Below are positions 4,538-15,977 of a DNA stretch of 64,000 nt, in pieces (the first letter of the stretch is position 1; the number at the start of each line of letters is the position of its first letter). The DNA lies in the NCBI GenBank assembly GCA_017510425.1, contig JAFWNJ010000011.1, positions 1 through 64,000 of the forward strand, given 5' to 3'. This DNA is from Candidatus Saccharimonadota bacterium. Its GTDB lineage: Bacteria > Patescibacteriota > Saccharimonadia > Saccharimonadales > Saccharimonadaceae. A program made the position numbers and the translations under genes. The notes under the pieces were generated by a model. That model saw nothing but the letters and a program-made list of their open reading frames with translations, made no database searches and was not told the origin of the DNA.

Positions 4538-4559
4538 ATGGCTGGGGTGGTAGGACTCG
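4538..4559. repeat. Left attachment repeat (displaced tRNA-Gln 3' end)
   Basis: Identical over 22 bp to the 3' end of tRNA-Gln at 15902-15923: CCA, discriminator, acceptor 3' strand, T-stem 3' strand and part of the T loop. Identity stops in the T loop. This is the expected product of integration into a tRNA 3' end. It is followed by a dyad (ACTCG at 4554-4558 with a later CGAGT) and a TTTTCAA/TTGAAAA hairpin, which could be recombinase arm sites. Confidence 0.85.
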
Positions 4560-4614: not shown

Positions 4615-4640
4615 ATGGCTGGGGATGAGGGACTTAATTC
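4615..4640. repeat. Second, diverged tRNA 3'-end-like remnant
   Basis: 77 bp inside the left repeat, the motif TGGCTGGGG recurs, followed by GAGGGACTT. Read on the minus strand this looks like a decayed acceptor plus T-arm of a different tRNA, ending in CCA. It may be a scar of an earlier integration or part of a complex attachment site. The adjacent 4641-4740 shows nothing further that I can assign. Confidence 0.45.
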
Positions 4641-6964: not shown

Positions 6965-7110
6965 CTAAAAAGAAGTTAAAAACTAATGATGGAGCAAGAA
7001 TAAAAGAAAACCAAAATATAATTCTGACACCCGTATGAAAGTGCTTATGTATATTATGCGATAACTTTTTGGGTCGGGGTTTGACAATGTATTTTTCGCT
7101 ATGTTTATGA

Positions 7111-7302
7111 TATAATTAAAGTGTTCTGAATTTCAATTTTACACACTGGTCTATCCGTGACAAGATAGGTAAATATTTGACCTCCGTGTGGAGCACCTCG
7201 CTCCAGTCAGGTCAAAAGCCAGTCTGTAGAAAATGAAGTTCAGAACACTCCATAGCGGGGTGTTCCACTTGGTTTATGGGGACAAATAATATCTATACGG
7301 AG
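7111..7302 (+). ncRNA. Structured 5' leader RNA, riboswitch-like three-way junction
   Basis: An extended -10 (TGATATAAT, hexamer at 7111-7116) precedes a leader of about 190 nt. P1 pairs 7120-7130 with 7239-7249 (11 bp perfect) and continues imperfectly to ACTGG (7145-7149) with CCAGT (7219-7223). Inside are P2 (7151-7155 with 7164-7168) and P3 (7176-7183 with 7209-7216, then GGAGC 7190-7194 with GCTCC 7200-7204). The 3' strand of P1 can instead pair downstream: 7243-7251 with 7257-7265, 9 bp with one G-U. CTCCGT at 7182-7187 is complementary to the Shine-Dalgarno ACGGAG at 7297-7302. No known class recognised. Alternatives: a replication origin hairpin of the element, or a palindromic repeat like those elsewhere in the window. 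Confidence 0.6.
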
Positions 7303-7308
7303 AAATAT

Positions 7309-8319
7309 ATGGCACACGACAATAAAAAGAGTAAGCACATCAGCAAACCTAGTACATCTAAAAAAAGTTTGTTGGCTTCAAAATCTAAACCGCATCTTGA
7401 TATTAAAAAAATATGGTTATTGTGTACTGCTACTATTGCGATTATTGCCGTCGTCGTATTTATCATAATTGCCCCTTCAGCATATAAATCGGAATTATCT
7501 GAACAAGGGAGCGGAAGGCTCAACGTTCAGACCAAAAGTGATAGAGAACTAATTATAGAAGATTTGTTAGGGATTGAAAGTACTTTAGAAGAAACGTCAA
7601 ATTTGGATTCAGAGAAAGTAGTCCTTGAGGGAATTTACAATAAGACGAGTACGCCAGAAGAAAATTGCAAAGGAAAAATAATTGAAGAGTCGAAGAACAC
7701 CTTTTTTGATAATAAGAATAATTTCTCTGTGGTTGAGCATAAGATATCGGTAAATGCTGGAATCCGAGACAAGGAGTTCGACAAATATTCGATTGGCAGT
7801 GATGGCGTATTGTATACAACATCTGTTGATAATAAAAAGTATAAGGCTATGGGAGGGCTAGGAATAGTGCAGAAGTTCGACTCAAATTCCAGCCACTACA
7901 ATAAGTACATAGACTATGGAATACTTGGCATTACGTGTAAGGTGTCTATAGTTGGTAATTATTCAGATGTAGAAAAAGGCTATACGAAAGAACTAGATAC
8001 AGAAGATGAAAATTTTGGACGCTATCTCCTCGGCACAGACATAATGTGGGGCGTTTATGCAGACGGCAACTTAACGACAAACTCTGATACCTATATAGTT
8101 ATCGTAGGCAAGGATTCAGAACTTAATGACGCAGAAAATGATGTGAGCGAAAATGCACTATCTAATTCTCATACTAGTGCTAATCCATATCCAAATTTAA
8201 AAGAAGATATTAGTCCAATTACAGAAATTCATATCTTTAATTTTGATTTTACTATAGATGAGAAGACGAAAGAGTTTGTCAATAAGTGGAGTTATGCTGT
8301 CAACAAGAATTTAAAATAA
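7309..8319 (+). CDS. Membrane-anchored unknown protein, cargo of the element
   Basis: A 336-aa protein with a lysine- and serine-rich cytoplasmic N-terminus (about 30 residues), one strongly hydrophobic helix (about residues 34-56) and a large, probably extracytoplasmic domain of about 270 residues. That domain has two cysteines and several N- and D-rich loops; I recognise no family. The start is set at MAHDNK because ACGGAG (7297-7302) lies 6 nt upstream; an 11-residue-longer start at 7276 has no ribosome binding site and would overlap the leader structure. It is the gene directly controlled by the structured leader. A probable small membrane protein follows at 8335. Confidence 0.7.
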   Translation: MAHDNKKSKHISKPSTSKKSLLASKSKPHLDIKKIWLLCTATIAIIAVVVFIIIAPSAYKSELSEQGSGRLNVQTKSDRELIIEDLLGIESTLEETSNLDSEKVVLEGIYNKTSTPEENCKGKIIEESKNTFFDNKNNFSVVEHKISVNAGIRDKEFDKYSIGSDGVLYTTSVDNKKYKAMGGLGIVQKFDSNSSHYNKYIDYGILGITCKVSIVGNYSDVEKGYTKELDTEDENFGRYLLGTDIMWGVYADGNLTTNSDTYIVIVGKDSELNDAENDVSENALSNSHTSANPYPNLKEDISPITEIHIFNFDFTIDEKTKEFVNKWSYAVNKNLK

Positions 8320-9233: not shown

Positions 9234-11555
9234 TCACTTTTTGTCAGAGAGATTTATCTTGCATCTTGGACACTTCTTCTGCGTAGTTAAATTATATATT
9301 CTTGTCTCCCATTTATGCTTACAAGATGGACATTTACAATTGATTATCTTCCCACTTTTTCTGCTTAATTCATATGGAGAGTAGTTTCCGTCATCCCATA
9401 CTTTTAACACATACGGGTCAGTAGTGGCTATATCGTTAAAACCTTTTAATACACGATTATTACTACAGTAATTGCATTTGTGTCCAGACAATCTACTAGG
9501 AAGAGTCGTCTCATAACTATGACTCTTCTTGCATTTTAGCCATATTTTCTTGCCCGAACCTTTACTAATTTCCGTAGGGAAGACCGTGTTTCTTTCATAA
9601 TCCCATTCATCCAATATTTCTGGATTCGTAGTAGCTATGTCATTAAAACCAGCAAGAACTCTTTGTCCAGAACAATATGGACACTGTATCTTCTTGGACG
9701 TTTTAGCATTTGGCGATGCTATATAACTGTGACCTTTAGCACATTTCCAATATACCTTCGTCTCGTGCCCTTTACTGACTTCCGTAGGTTTTATAATATT
9801 TCGCTCATAATCCCATTCATCCAACAGGTTTGGGTGCGTAGTAGCCAAATCATTGAAACCTGTAAGTACTCTATGCCCAGAGCAATATGGACAACCACAA
9901 GAAGACTTACCTACATTCAATAAAGAACCGTTATAACTATGCCCTTTTTCACATATTAACCAAACAATCCTATTTGAGAATCTAGTAACCTCTGTTGGCT
10001 TTATTTTGTTTTTCTTATAATCCCATCTTTTTACAAGTTCTGGGTTTGTTGTTGCTAGGTCATTAAAACCAACCAATATCTTTCTTGGTGGAGTTGAGCA
10101 ATACGGGCATCCAGTTCCACCGTTTATACGATTAGAAAGAGTTGCTTTGTAACTATGACCTTTATCGCAGACCCACCAAATATATTCAGCCGTTCCACGA
10201 GATACATTATCTGGCGTTAATCCGAGTTTCTTGTTTTTCTCATAGTCCCATTCAGGTAGCAATTCAGGGTTTGTTTTTGTAATACAGTTCTCAATTTCAT
10301 AATTTTCGACTTGCCGTCTTAATATGTCGTGGTCTCTATCTAAATCTACATTCATATCAACATCTAGTTGGTTTTCTAAAAATTCTAATGCCCCGATGAG
10401 ATGTTTGCCGTCTGCTCGTCCATTTTCTGTTATTTGGTATACCATCGAACTTGATTCAAGTGTTTCTGCATTTTTCTCACGTATGCGAATCAGTTTAATT
10501 CCGTTTTTCTGACAAAGGTTATCTTTTATAATATCTTTCTTTCTTCTATGGTAAAATTCGCCATCATATTCTATGCCAACTTTTATACTTGGAATAAATA
10601 TGTCCAATTCTTTTTTACCAAGCCATTCCGTCTTATAATTTTCAACAGCATCTTTGAACGTATTTTTTATATAATAAAAGATGACTTTTTCTGGAAAAGA
10701 TATCCTATTCCTCTTGGCACAAACTGGACATTGGTTGATTGAACTATCGTTCCTAATTCTATTTGCAACTTTACTTTGCCACTCGTGTCCTCTTTTGCAT
10801 TTCCACCAAAATTTCTGGCTTCCACCTCTAACAATAGTCGTAGGGTCGATTGTATTTTTTTCGTAGTTCCATTCTTCTTTTAATGCTGGAAATTGCGTAA
10901 ATAAATCATTCATTCCTGCAATGGCTTTATGGTTTGAACAATATGGACATCCGCAACCTCTTATCCTTGTAATTACTTTCATCTTATAAGAATGGTTTTT
11001 CTTACATTTCCAATATATGCCCAAAGTATACCCCTTACTTATCTCCTGCGGGCTTATTTTATTTTTTTCGTAATCCCATTCATTCATTATTTCTGGATTC
11101 GTAGTTGCGATGTCGTTATAGCCAACCAATATTTTGCGTATCGGATTTGAACAATATGGGCAACCAACACCGTGGGTCCTTGGATGTATGACTGAATCAT
11201 AACTATGCCCTTTTGGGCATATCCACCATACTTTAGGTCTAAATCCCACGCCTATTTTAGTTGGGTCTATCCCAAGTTTGTTGTTTTTCTCATAGTCCCA
11301 TTCAGTAAGTAGTTCGGGGTACTTTGTAGCAAAGTCATTAAAGCCCGATAAAATTTGTCTACCAGAACAATATGGGCAACCATAATGTCTATTTGTTCTT
11401 TCGTGAATGCGCCTTTGAAAAGAGTGATTGTTTTTACACCTCCACCACACCTTTTTATTTGAGCCAGTAGAGACCTCATCAAAGAAAATGCCATCGTTAG
11501 CATTTTTTTCGTAGTCCCATTCTTTTACTAATTCAGGGTAGTCTTTCTTGTTCAT
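9234..11555 (-). CDS. Nine-zinc-ribbon protein with central PD-(D/E)XK-like nuclease
   Basis: A 773-aa protein built of nine copies of a domain of about 65 residues: a PELLxEWDYEKN start, a W-W-x-C-x-x-x-H-S-Y segment and a CPYCSG end. This matches the probable zinc-ribbon domain PF14311 (DUF4379). Four copies precede and five follow a central domain (about residues 285-400) with KELDIFIPSIKVGIEYDGEF followed by YH, the core of Vsr/DUF559-type PD-(D/E)XK endonucleases. Each repeat carries CxxxH and CxxC pairs able to bind zinc. The repeats probably grip DNA and position the nuclease (inference). It is the only long minus-strand gene of the element; TATAAT and a weak AAGG site precede the ATG. 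Could serve defence, element competition or mobility. Confidence 0.7.
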   Translation of the reverse strand: MNKKDYPELVKEWDYEKNANDGIFFDEVSTGSNKKVWWRCKNNHSFQRRIHERTNRHYGCPYCSGRQILSGFNDFATKYPELLTEWDYEKNNKLGIDPTKIGVGFRPKVWWICPKGHSYDSVIHPRTHGVGCPYCSNPIRKILVGYNDIATTNPEIMNEWDYEKNKISPQEISKGYTLGIYWKCKKNHSYKMKVITRIRGCGCPYCSNHKAIAGMNDLFTQFPALKEEWNYEKNTIDPTTIVRGGSQKFWWKCKRGHEWQSKVANRIRNDSSINQCPVCAKRNRISFPEKVIFYYIKNTFKDAVENYKTEWLGKKELDIFIPSIKVGIEYDGEFYHRRKKDIIKDNLCQKNGIKLIRIREKNAETLESSSMVYQITENGRADGKHLIGALEFLENQLDVDMNVDLDRDHDILRRQVENYEIENCITKTNPELLPEWDYEKNKKLGLTPDNVSRGTAEYIWWVCDKGHSYKATLSNRINGGTGCPYCSTPPRKILVGFNDLATTNPELVKRWDYKKNKIKPTEVTRFSNRIVWLICEKGHSYNGSLLNVGKSSCGCPYCSGHRVLTGFNDLATTHPNLLDEWDYERNIIKPTEVSKGHETKVYWKCAKGHSYIASPNAKTSKKIQCPYCSGQRVLAGFNDIATTNPEILDEWDYERNTVFPTEISKGSGKKIWLKCKKSHSYETTLPSRLSGHKCNYCSNNRVLKGFNDIATTDPYVLKVWDDGNYSPYELSRKSGKIINCKCPSCKHKWETRIYNLTTQKKCPRCKINLSDKK

Positions 11556-13260: not shown

Positions 13261-14362
13261 GTCGTTTGCTAATAAATGGTCTCCTAGCCTAAATGGGGTA
13301 CTATTCCCACCGTATGATATCAGTTCAAGTAAAAATAAGAAATGTACTCTAAACCCAGACAGAGAAGATAAAGAGCGTGGGCAATATATGCCCCACCTGA
13401 CATTTTATAAACAAGTAGTTAGGAGCGGATTTCTTTACATCTTATATATTTCATTTTCTGCTCCGAAAGTTTTGTACGGTAATAATCTTGAGGAATCTAG
13501 ACAGATGGAATTGCCAGTTCTCTGTAGCAGGTTAAGCGCTCTATTGTCAGAAAAAGGCGTTCATCTTTCCGTAGAAGAGATTTTAAAATCCGAAGTAAAA
13601 GCCATCCATTATGGGAAAAACGTCGTTTTGCAAAACTGGATGTCTCCTAGACAGATTATTAACTACGTATCAAAAGCCGATATCCCTCTCAAGAAAAACA
13701 CAGATTTCGTTCGCTACAAGAATGAGGGGATGGCACTTCATATTTATACAAATGAACGGAGTCTTTGTTTATATGACAAACTCGAAGAACTTAAAAAAGC
13801 CAAACTCACAGAAAAGGGCAATATAGAAAAAGACAATCAGTATCAGTTATGGCTATTGCATCACATTGGAAAAGTCATTAAACAGCCATTCAAAGTTCTG
13901 CGAATTGAAAGTCGGCTAGAAACGAAAAAGGCGATACGAGACTGCTTTAAAAAACTCAAAATTAAAGTTCCCCATAGTCTTACTCTTGAAGATTTATATA
14001 AAGAAGACTTGGGGAAGGCAGTGTTATCAAATGAAATCAAGATGCTTGAGGAGAATATACCAGTATTTAGCAGTTGTCGAGAGCCACCTGAAAACTTCGC
14101 CGAGTATATTCGTATTCTTAATCCGAAAGCCAAGGCAGAAAATATAGCATTCGTTGTCGGAGTAATGACAATAGAAAGAAATGTTGGAATGAGGAATACA
14201 CGGATGCTACTTGGAGCGAAAGAGTCGGCAAAATGGCGAAACATAAAGAATAAGTTAGAAAGACTAGCAATGCCAAATATGCCAATCGACTATCTCGCTG
14301 AAATACATAAACAAATCGAGTCTTTCAAGCCACTTAAACTTGAGGACTATCTTAAAAAATAG
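13196..14362 (+). CDS. Phage gene II/X-like replication protein (putative Rep)
   Basis: A 388-aa protein whose layout fits the phage/plasmid replication gene II/X family (PF05144): an N-terminal strand-rich part, a central EVKAIHYGKNVVL segment, a LCLYDKLEEL motif near residue 190 like the family YDK region, and VLRIESRLETKK near 235, like the LRxExRL strand. Such proteins nick DNA and start rolling-circle replication of filamentous phages and small plasmids. AAAGGA lies 8 nt before the ATG. It overlaps the SpoVG-like gene and is followed after 19 nt by the recombinase. If correct, the element can replicate as a circle after excision. The nicking tyrosine cannot be assigned by eye. Confidence 0.5.
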   Translation: MPDTIVLAVKIKDPLTQTIIDKSFANKWSPSLNGVLFPPYDISSSKNKKCTLNPDREDKERGQYMPHLTFYKQVVRSGFLYILYISFSAPKVLYGNNLEESRQMELPVLCSRLSALLSEKGVHLSVEEILKSEVKAIHYGKNVVLQNWMSPRQIINYVSKADIPLKKNTDFVRYKNEGMALHIYTNERSLCLYDKLEELKKAKLTEKGNIEKDNQYQLWLLHHIGKVIKQPFKVLRIESRLETKKAIRDCFKKLKIKVPHSLTLEDLYKEDLGKAVLSNEIKMLEENIPVFSSCREPPENFAEYIRILNPKAKAENIAFVVGVMTIERNVGMRNTRMLLGAKESAKWRNIKNKLERLAMPNMPIDYLAEIHKQIESFKPLKLEDYLKK

Positions 14363-14381
14363 TATAATTAAAGGAGAAAAT

Positions 14382-15917
14382 ATGGTAAATATCACCAGGA
14401 AAAAAGCGGAGGTAAATAAGAAGGCTGTGCTTTTCGCACGTGTCTCAACTGCTCGTCAAAAGCGAGAAGGTCTTTCAATCGAAGAAATCCAACTTCCTAG
14501 AATTCGTGAATACGCTAAAAAAGAAGGACTTGAAGTAATTGCGGAATTTACTGCTGGCGAAAGCGGTGGTAGCGAAAAAGAGCGAAAAAAATTCAACGAG
14601 ATGGTTAATTTTGTTGAAAAGAATAAAGAGATTGGCAACATCGTTGTTTATCGAGTAGACAGAGCAACCAGAAATTTTAAGGATGCTGTTAGAATCAAAG
14701 ACTTATGTGATAACAGGAATGTAAAACTCCATTGCGTAGACGAAAGATTGGTACTCGAAAGAGACACTCGTGGCTCAAAAATGACAGAATGGAATACTAA
14801 AGTTTTCGTTGGTCAAGAATATCTGAATAGAGTAAAAGAGGATGGTTTCAACACAAAATATACCAAATTGGAGCGTGGGGAACTCCCCTGGCACGCTCCT
14901 TTTGGATATGATAATGTAAAAATGCCAAATGGAGAGCCTACGGTAATGATGGATGGTAAAAATTCTCATATCGTACGTGAAATTTTTCGCAGATACACGA
15001 CTGGCACTTATTCACTGCAGTCGCTTGCTAAAGAAATCAATGGAGAATTCGATACTAACTTCTACAAAAATGGAATCCGCAGAATTCTCACTAATAAGTT
15101 TTATGTAGGTATTATCGTGGATAGAAGAACTGGAGACGAATACCCACACATTTATGATACTCTTGTAAGTAAAGATTCGTTTGAGAAGATTCAAGATATC
15201 CTAACTGGACATAGTACTAAACGTCAGCGATATTATGGCGTAGAAGCCACATATAGGGCTATGATGACGTGTTCAGAATGTGGCTGTTCGTTGACTCCAG
15301 ACCCAAAGAAAAAGGTTCAAAAGAATGGAAATGTACATCACTACCTCTATTATCATTGTACAAATGGCAAGCATCTCCATACTAGCCCAGTTCATAGTAT
15401 TTCAGAAACGAAACTGGATACAATTATGCAGGATTTGTTAAAAAGATTGAAACCACCAAAGGAAAGGATGGAGACACTCAAAAAAGAGTTGATTGCAAAG
15501 AATAAAGAAAAGAACAAATTCTATGATGAGCGACGTGCAAGCCTCACTGCATCGCTACAGCGTATTCGTCAACGTCAGGAAAAAGCATTCGATATGTTGA
15601 TGGACGGGAGTATTACACAGGAGCAATATGACAGAAATAATGAACGTTATGCGGAAGAAGTAGAGGAAGTAGAGAAAAAGCAAAGACAGTTAGACGAAAT
15701 TGACCAATCCTATTACGTAACGGTTTCCTACCTGTTAAGCCTTTTCGAACACGCTTCTGACATCTTTGCAGTTGCGAAAGCAAATGAAAAACGCCAAATT
15801 CTCGGTCTGTTACTCTCGAACCTCGAATTTGACGGTGAAAACATCCATTATACCCTGAAAGAGCCCTTTGAGGGGCTCTTTCATTCGACTAATCGTTCTA
15901 TATGGCTGGGGTGGTAG
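14382..15917 (+). CDS. Large serine recombinase (integrase of the element)
   Basis: A 511-aa large serine recombinase. The resolvase-type catalytic domain starts with AVLFARVSTARQ, where the serine is the predicted nucleophile (about residue 20), and contains YRVDRATRN near 88. The recombinase domain has FGYDNV and NGIRRILTNKFYVGIIVDRR, and a zinc ribbon has CSECGCSL with a later CTNG. A coiled coil (about residues 375-450) follows, typical of large integrases. The start is MVNITRK: AAAGGAG lies 6 nt upstream and TATAAT just before it; a 14-residue-longer reading lacks such a site. The final codons and the TAG stop lie inside tRNA-Gln on the opposite strand, so the attachment core supplies the C-terminus. 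It is the obvious enzyme for integration and excision here. Confidence 0.9.
   Translation: MVNITRKKAEVNKKAVLFARVSTARQKREGLSIEEIQLPRIREYAKKEGLEVIAEFTAGESGGSEKERKKFNEMVNFVEKNKEIGNIVVYRVDRATRNFKDAVRIKDLCDNRNVKLHCVDERLVLERDTRGSKMTEWNTKVFVGQEYLNRVKEDGFNTKYTKLERGELPWHAPFGYDNVKMPNGEPTVMMDGKNSHIVREIFRRYTTGTYSLQSLAKEINGEFDTNFYKNGIRRILTNKFYVGIIVDRRTGDEYPHIYDTLVSKDSFEKIQDILTGHSTKRQRYYGVEATYRAMMTCSECGCSLTPDPKKKVQKNGNVHHYLYYHCTNGKHLHTSPVHSISETKLDTIMQDLLKRLKPPKERMETLKKELIAKNKEKNKFYDERRASLTASLQRIRQRQEKAFDMLMDGSITQEQYDRNNERYAEEVEEVEKKQRQLDEIDQSYYVTVSYLLSLFEHASDIFAVAKANEKRQILGLLLSNLEFDGENIHYTLKEPFEGLFHSTNRSIWLGW
15857..15882 (+). terminator. Hairpin inside the recombinase 3' coding region
   Basis: GAAAGAGCCC (15857-15866) and GGGCTCTTTC (15873-15882) form a perfect 10-bp stem with a 6-nt loop, followed by only a weak T tract. 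It lies about 35 nt before the recombinase stop. It may end the recombinase message near its stop codon, or limit read-through into the tRNA on the opposite strand. Confidence 0.5.
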
Positions 15918-15923
15918 GACTCG
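15902..15923. repeat. Right attachment repeat, inside tRNA-Gln
   Basis: Exact 22-bp copy of 4538-4559. It supplies the 3' end of the intact tRNA-Gln, including CCA, and the last codons and stop of the recombinase on the other strand. Confidence 0.85.
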
Positions 15924-15977
15924 AACCCACGAATGTCGGGACCAGAACCCGATGCCTTACCACTTGGCGACACCCCA
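15903..15977 (-). tRNA. tRNA-Gln (anticodon CTG)
   Basis: A complete cloverleaf on the minus strand: acceptor TGGGGTG paired with CACCCCA, D-arm, anticodon stem TCGGG/CCCGA with loop TTCTGGT (anticodon CTG, glutamine), T-arm with GTTCGAGTC, discriminator G and encoded CCA. It is the integration target of the 4.5-15.9 kb element; its 3' 21 nt come from the element side. It overlaps the recombinase 3' end antisense. Confidence 0.95.

Follow-up and report, generated by a model that had tools for sequence, protein, structure and literature searches.

What kind of element lies between the promoter and the start codon of an orphan gene carried by a Saccharimonadota mobile element? The window analyzed here is a 64,000-nucleotide (nt) stretch of contig JAFWNJ010000011.1 from a Candidatus Saccharimonadota bacterium with a small genome of 840 kilobases (kb). 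A first-pass annotation, made from the sequence alone, had marked positions 7111–7302 as a riboswitch-like leader of no known class, with a switchable closing helix (P1) and an anti-Shine-Dalgarno segment. Our analysis indicates that 7120–7281 is probably a cis-acting transcription attenuator, and a member of a large RNA family absent from Rfam. Promoter, fold, terminator and gene follow one another in the order expected of a transcription attenuator. The gene is an orphan that encodes a membrane-anchored protein, and it belongs to an integrative element of approximately 11.4 kb.

Architecture of the leader

The predicted fold of 7100–7320 has a z score of -5.8, and none of 200 dinucleotide shuffles was equally stable. 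The features of the leader, all on the plus strand, are as follows.

7108–7116: extended -10 promoter element TGATATAAT, read from the sequence, with a predicted start at about 7121–7123
7120–7135: P1 5' strand (segment 1), from fold and covariation
7137–7150: 5' strand of the inner helix P1b, up to the junction, from covariation
7151–7168: hairpin P2, approximate limits, from covariation
7176–7216: P3 arm, with stem 7176–7183/7209–7216 and apical hairpin 7190–7204, from covariation
7188–7202: segment 2, GTGGAGCACCTCGCT, the pseudoknot half at the P3 apex, from duplex energy and covariation
7218–7231: 3' strand of P1b, from fold and covariation
7234–7249: P1 3' strand, whose end is common to the terminator-like hairpin (segment 3), from fold and covariation
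7243–7265: terminator-type hairpin (segments 3:4), arms 7243–7251 and 7257–7265, pairing kept in homologues
7254–7268: segment 4, AGCGGGGTGTTCCAC, the other pseudoknot half, overlapping the 3' arm of the hairpin, from covariation
7266–7276: U-rich tail CACTTGGTTTA, weaker than in other genera by T counts
7297–7302: Shine-Dalgarno sequence ACGGAG of the downstream gene, its complementarity to 7182–7187 not kept in homologues

A three-way junction from which P2 and P3 branch is closed by a long P1 and the inner helix P1b. The closing helix around two hairpins that had been proposed is present and covarying, with a P1 longer than the 11 base pairs (bp) assigned to it. Positions 7111–7116 read TATAAT and form a -10 box, so the RNA would start at about 7121–7123 and not at 7111; the helices placed within the annotated interval are real, and its first six positions belong to the promoter. 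The 9-bp alternative helix exists exactly as described, with GAACACTCC (7243–7251, which includes P1 3' strand sequence) complementary over 9 bp to GGGGTGTTC (7257–7265). Once the likely +1 position is used, P1 overlaps this hairpin by only about 3–4 nt, and P1 switching can be only a minor part of the mechanism. Mutually exclusive helices are thus a genuine property of the leader, but the main competitor of hairpin 7243–7265 is a pseudoknot between P3 and 7254–7268, not P1. This pairing of the P3 apex was missed in the first-pass annotation. The proposed anti-Shine-Dalgarno does not hold up. CTCCGT at 7182–7187 is complementary to ACGGAG at 7297–7302 in the window, but the 6-mer complementarity recurs in 2 of 42 homologues against 4.5 expected with shuffled partners; being rarer than with shuffled partners, it is a chance match.

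Homologues and covariation of the fold

A BLAST search with the leader against 100 relatives found leaders of 71–90% identity in about a dozen congeners, several of which carry two or three copies, each before a different gene. Covariance model R1, built from 11 congeneric leaders, located 51 places in 36 of the 174 genomes of the genus, and models R2 and R3 reached much further. At family level, matches were found in 56 of 246 genomes and in 28 of the 61 genera sampled. Only 7 of 230 genomes in a phylum-wide sample matched, which shows the model to be specific and the family to be centred on the order to which the window genome belongs. More than 100 members were collected. Two of the model matches, L136 (among the 51 places) and L180, were false positives on inspection; reverse-strand matches are mirror images of the same helices, and the BLAST matches L046–L048 and L050–L051 reflect chance similarity to promoter, coding or Shine-Dalgarno sequence.

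Covariation was measured in two alignments, A3 (45 distinct leaders of the genus, fitted to R1) and A8 (84 divergent leaders, fitted to R3). Because both were fitted to the structure, they are biased in its favour; compensated changes are already present in 22 of 52 pairs of an unfitted MAFFT alignment (A1). In A3, 95.9% of cells are paired and both sides change in 38 of 44 pairs, with a covariation score of 0.539 against 0.218 when shuffled and at most 0.096 when slid. P1 is paired in 97.4% of cells and has both-side changes in 12 of 14 pairs; covariation extends to every pair of P1b (11/11), P2 (5/5) and P3 (8/8). The divergent leaders give the same picture at greater depth. Pairing is kept in 89.3% of A8 cells, both-side changes occur in 41 of 44 pairs, there are 1068 double-changed cells where shuffles give 339 ± 20, and the covariation score is 0.649 against 0.180 shuffled. 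The covariation that had been proposed as a test over homologous leaders is thus found across these 84 sequences. The P1+P1b arm has a median length of 26 nt and the P3+pseudoknot arm of 25 nt, as would suit two arms lying side by side, but the two lengths are uncorrelated (rho 0.13, p 0.26).

The promoter is fixed relative to the fold. A -10-like hexamer stands at nearly constant spacing in 111 of 116 members, TGn is present in 87, and a G followed by T lies 12 nt past the hexamer start in 98 of 106. This conserved G, the predicted +1, lies in the first pair of P1.

No Rfam 15 family matches the leader region even at E values up to 10, and at the divergent loci Rfam reports only transfer RNA (tRNA) and transfer-messenger RNA elsewhere on the contigs, plus sub-threshold noise. 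Covariation and the lack of an Rfam 15 family together bear out the original description of a riboswitch-like leader of no known class. In the named collection, the congeneric matches come from Candidatus Saccharibacteria assemblies, most of them of ruminant-gut origin. A strong copy (L158:2468–2627, minus strand) lies on a rabbit-gut contig labelled uncultured Bacilli, and is probably mis-binned or transferred. A separate leader with a four-segment logic like that of the family precedes an EcoRI-type adenine methylase (L049:2190–2400, G016:C6:17190–17400), with segments GTGTCC, GGGCACTGTAG, GGACAC and CTACAGTGTCC followed by TTTTT. Model R3 has no match to L049 on that strand and we do not claim it as a member; it is possibly a more distant branch.

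A pseudoknot proposed to capture the terminator arm

In the window, 7188–7202 and 7254–7268 form a 15-bp duplex of -28.9 kcal/mol (z = -6.1 against shuffled interior). This 2:4 pairing was absent from every model used for searching. It is nevertheless paired in 97.6% of cells in the genus, with 26 double-changed cells against 7.6 in shuffles, a value reached by 0 of 500 shuffles. An alignment-free test gave the same result. Compared with shuffled interior sequence, segment 2 scores z below -2 in 106 of 116 members, the median z being -6.5 within the genus and -4.3 among divergent members; in most of the others the script picked the wrong hairpin. The median length of the pseudoknot is 14 bp.

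The pairing survives wholesale replacement of its sequence, as seen in L174 (GGGCAGCCAC/GTGGCTGTCC), L212 (AAAGCGGCACCGC/GCGGTGTCGCTTT), L211 (AAAACGGGCAC/GTGTCCGTTTT) and L226 (AAAATGGCACCACG/CGTGGTGTCATTTT). Genome G007 holds several copies, among them L089 (CACTCGCT/AGCGAGTG) and L096 (CACCTCGCT/AGCGGGGTG), and the changes are matched inside each copy. Such within-copy matching in multi-copy genomes (G007, G052) shows that the 2:4 pairing is in cis. The helix extends into the U-tract in many divergent members. Within the genus, changes in the tail (CCACTT, CCATTT, CCGCTT) go hand in hand with changes in segment 2 (AAGTGG, AAATGG, GCGG), which may explain why the U-tract there is eroded.

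The putative terminator hairpin and the proposed balance between states

The hairpin formed by segments 3 and 4 keeps its pairing in 87.5% of cells in the genus, with 7 double changes. It is followed in divergent members by a canonical U-tract with at least 7 T in 8 positions (51 of 62), often directly upstream of the Shine-Dalgarno sequence. Members of the genus reach at least 6 T in 8 in 32 of 44 cases (median 6; background probability 3.4%), and with this weaker tract termination there may be leaky. Some divergent terminators (L171, L192) end about 10–15 nt before the start codon, which leaves no room for a separate promoter. The family therefore has the parts expected of an attenuator with an intrinsic terminator: a G+C-rich hairpin and U-tract between promoter and gene, weak in the window, and a conserved, mutually exclusive antiterminator in the form of the 2:4 pseudoknot.

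These parts suggest a simple scheme. Transcription would start at the first pair of P1, and P1, P1b, P2 and P3 would fold into the three-way junction. In the off state, 7243–7265 would fold as an intrinsic-terminator hairpin and transcription would end before the gene. In the on state, part of the 5' arm would be held by P1 and the P3 apex (7188–7202) would capture 7254–7268 in the pseudoknot, allowing read-through. The full 3' arm of the hairpin would thus be contested between terminator and pseudoknot. In favour of a balance, the P1-only and terminator states have predicted energies about 2–3 kcal/mol apart at the median. We infer from the arrangement as a whole that cells do terminate transcription here, that the pseudoknot represents the "on" state and that some signal shifts the balance between the two.

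Several observations weigh against this scheme. The 3:4 helix covaries less than the 2:4 helix, and the window's own genus has a poor U-tract in the tail CACTTGGTTTA. With no pseudoknot penalty included, the pseudoknot state is predicted to be more stable by about 12 kcal/mol and lies below the terminator state in every member, which could mean that the leader is always on. The pseudoknot also covers U-tract bases that would be inside RNA polymerase at the moment of decision, and so it may act mainly after read-through.

Segment 4 has other potential partners. It can also pair with a purine-rich segment past the U-rich tail in L134, L124 and L176 (L134 GGGCGTTCC/GGGGAGCGCCC; L176 GTGTCC/GGGACAC), and a 4:5 hairpin with a downstream GGGGAAC is seen in several members. 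Segment 4 and the downstream purine-rich segment possibly form a third alternative helix. Hairpins covering the Shine-Dalgarno sequence are present in L110, L115 and L117, sometimes after this third helix.

Downstream genes and rival explanations

Where enough sequence is available, nearly all divergent members have a same-strand start codon about 5–125 nt beyond the matched region. Their first downstream genes encode N6/N4, EcoRI-type and C5 DNA methyltransferases (9 of 60), DUF4352 proteins (5), serine recombinase and small membrane proteins. In the genus they include HSDR_N and PDDEXK nucleases, YbjQ, a P-type ATPase, an epimerase and many orphans. These genes have no common pathway and do not form a coherent set. 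One family of small membrane proteins of about 75 amino acids (MKDRKTYKILTACSFILPINRWYLGN...) recurs 3' of the leader in several genera (L181, L183, L184, L190, L193, L195, L197, L203, L204, L209, L213, L215 and L217).

The most serious rival to a fold-encoded attenuator is an ON-type metabolite or ion riboswitch, in which a ligand bound at the three-way junction would stabilize P1 and the pseudoknot and prevent termination. The family does present a structured domain in 5' leaders backed by covariation, and its three-way junction, P1–terminator overlap and many gene contexts resemble those of ON riboswitches. The unpaired core is also partly conserved inside the genus, where some bases flanking P3 (CAGTC.G) and the A-rich joining bases are well kept. 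Over 84 members, however, conservation of 90% is reached only in the switch segments and by no unpaired base of the junction or loops. The lack of a family-wide junction base, together with the lack of a pathway shared by methyltransferase, DUF4352, membrane, nuclease, recombinase, P-type ATPase and epimerase genes, argues against an ordinary metabolite riboswitch, and we regard this explanation as unlikely. What stands of the earlier riboswitch reading is a previously undescribed switching leader; the missing conserved core speaks against a classical aptamer. Judged by its alignments, the family conserves an architecture and no aptamer sequence; possible triggers include a protein, clade-specific ligands or a physical signal. 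A leader-peptide attenuator was considered and rejected: the AUG found in the 3' strand of P1 gives way to GTG or TTG in L106 and L116, and L128 and L131 have no start codon.

The remaining explanations account for less of the evidence. A stability element, in which the P1-sealed 5' end, junction and pseudoknot protect the mRNA from exonucleases, would fit a P1 that begins at the predicted +1 and a topology like that of viral exonuclease-resistant RNA. It would leave unexplained why the pseudoknot partner is a terminator arm, with a U-tract in most genera, and we consider it improbable. Control by a counter-transcribed antisense RNA, as in the repC leader of pT181, is suggested by four mutually complementary segments in a mobile-element setting. 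It becomes very improbable in light of the opposite strand, which has an extended -10 element in none of 116 members and a plain ATTATA in 12; this result bears on an antisense RNA encoded at the leader itself and not on one from another locus. Scarcely more attractive, and if anything less so, is a terminated small RNA acting in trans with the downstream gene incidental; a promoter and terminator do flank a stable RNA of about 150 nt, but the nearby same-strand start codons, a gene context that differs everywhere and pairing that covaries inside each copy all speak against it. A repeat or recombination site acting as DNA, with no RNA role, can practically be dismissed. Inverted repeats on a mobile element are what it would predict, but promoter and gene orientation are fixed and the covariation tolerates G-U pairs. 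Nor is the leader a scattered repeat, which would have undermined the original annotation: it is single-copy in the window genome and has no match in phage or plasmid collections, and viral contigs have no match to the segment-2 pattern.

Attenuation by competition between pseudoknot and terminator therefore remains our preferred explanation. More tentatively, and with less confidence than doubt, we suggest a widespread family in the Patescibacteria in which a fold-encoded switch governs accessory genes. Its P3-apex pseudoknot would capture the terminator 3' arm and U-tract bases, it would be conserved as architecture, and it may sense polymerase speed, temperature or a protein in place of a metabolite.

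Genomic setting in the window

The mobile-element setting given in the first-pass annotation is confirmed by 22-nt repeats matching part of a tRNA-Gln gene, which flank the integrative element of approximately 11.4 kb with a serine recombinase inside.

4538–4559 and 15902–15923: direct repeat, 22 nt, exact, equal to the 3' end of tRNA-Gln
7309–8319, plus strand: gene 3' of the leader, encoding a 336-amino-acid protein with one N-terminal membrane segment and no Pfam match
14340–15917: serine recombinase of the integrative element
15903–15977, minus strand: tRNA-Gln(CTG), whose 3' end is the 22-nt repeat

A third, degenerate copy of the repeat at about 4616–4634 is perhaps the mark of an older insertion. 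A 773-amino-acid protein encoded at 9234–11555 (minus strand) carries nine treble-clef zinc fingers of the DUF4379 type and, in its middle, a weak match to DUF2726, and is likely to be DNA-acting cargo of the element. Recombinase relatives occur within the fetched flanks of 14 of 50 loci in the genus, so mobile elements are common hosts of the leader but not its sole ones.

Significance and comparison with known systems

Among the papers searched for riboswitches, attenuators and RNA motifs in Saccharibacteria, none was found to describe a cis-regulatory RNA. The need for inducible expression tools in these organisms has been stated (PMC11665869). For organisms without such tools, the leader is a ready-made regulatory part. 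Its wider importance is that a large covarying family, absent from Rfam, stands before genes for DNA methyltransferases, recombinases, nucleases and surface proteins in a lineage that is epibiotic and has a reduced genome.

Individual features of the leader have parallels elsewhere. The ON-type purine (adenine pbuE) riboswitch has a P1–P2–P3 three-way junction in which the P1 3' strand overlaps and disfavours an intrinsic terminator. The leader shares the junction and a P1 that overlaps the terminator and would disfavour it. It differs in having no conserved junction core, no L2–L3 kissing pattern that we could find and no match to any Rfam model; instead, a long pseudoknot links P3 with the 3' arm of the terminator. 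The attenuation leader of pT181 repC uses four-segment, mutually exclusive pairing on a mobile element. The present leader resembles it in pairing logic and location, but no antisense promoter was found, it contains a three-way junction and a pseudoknot, and it precedes many unrelated genes. Exonuclease-resistant RNAs of flaviviruses combine a three-way junction with a pseudoknot from an apical loop to downstream sequence. The likeness is one of topology only, and in the leader the downstream partner is a terminator. The fluoride, preQ1-I and ZTP riboswitches are pseudoknot-based and act on transcription; in each, a single strand is claimed by both a pseudoknot and a terminator, as it would be here. 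Unlike those three, the leader has no conserved aptamer, and its pseudoknot (median 14 bp) occupies the 3' arm of the terminator and often bases of the U-tract as well, which would constitute a new antitermination geometry.
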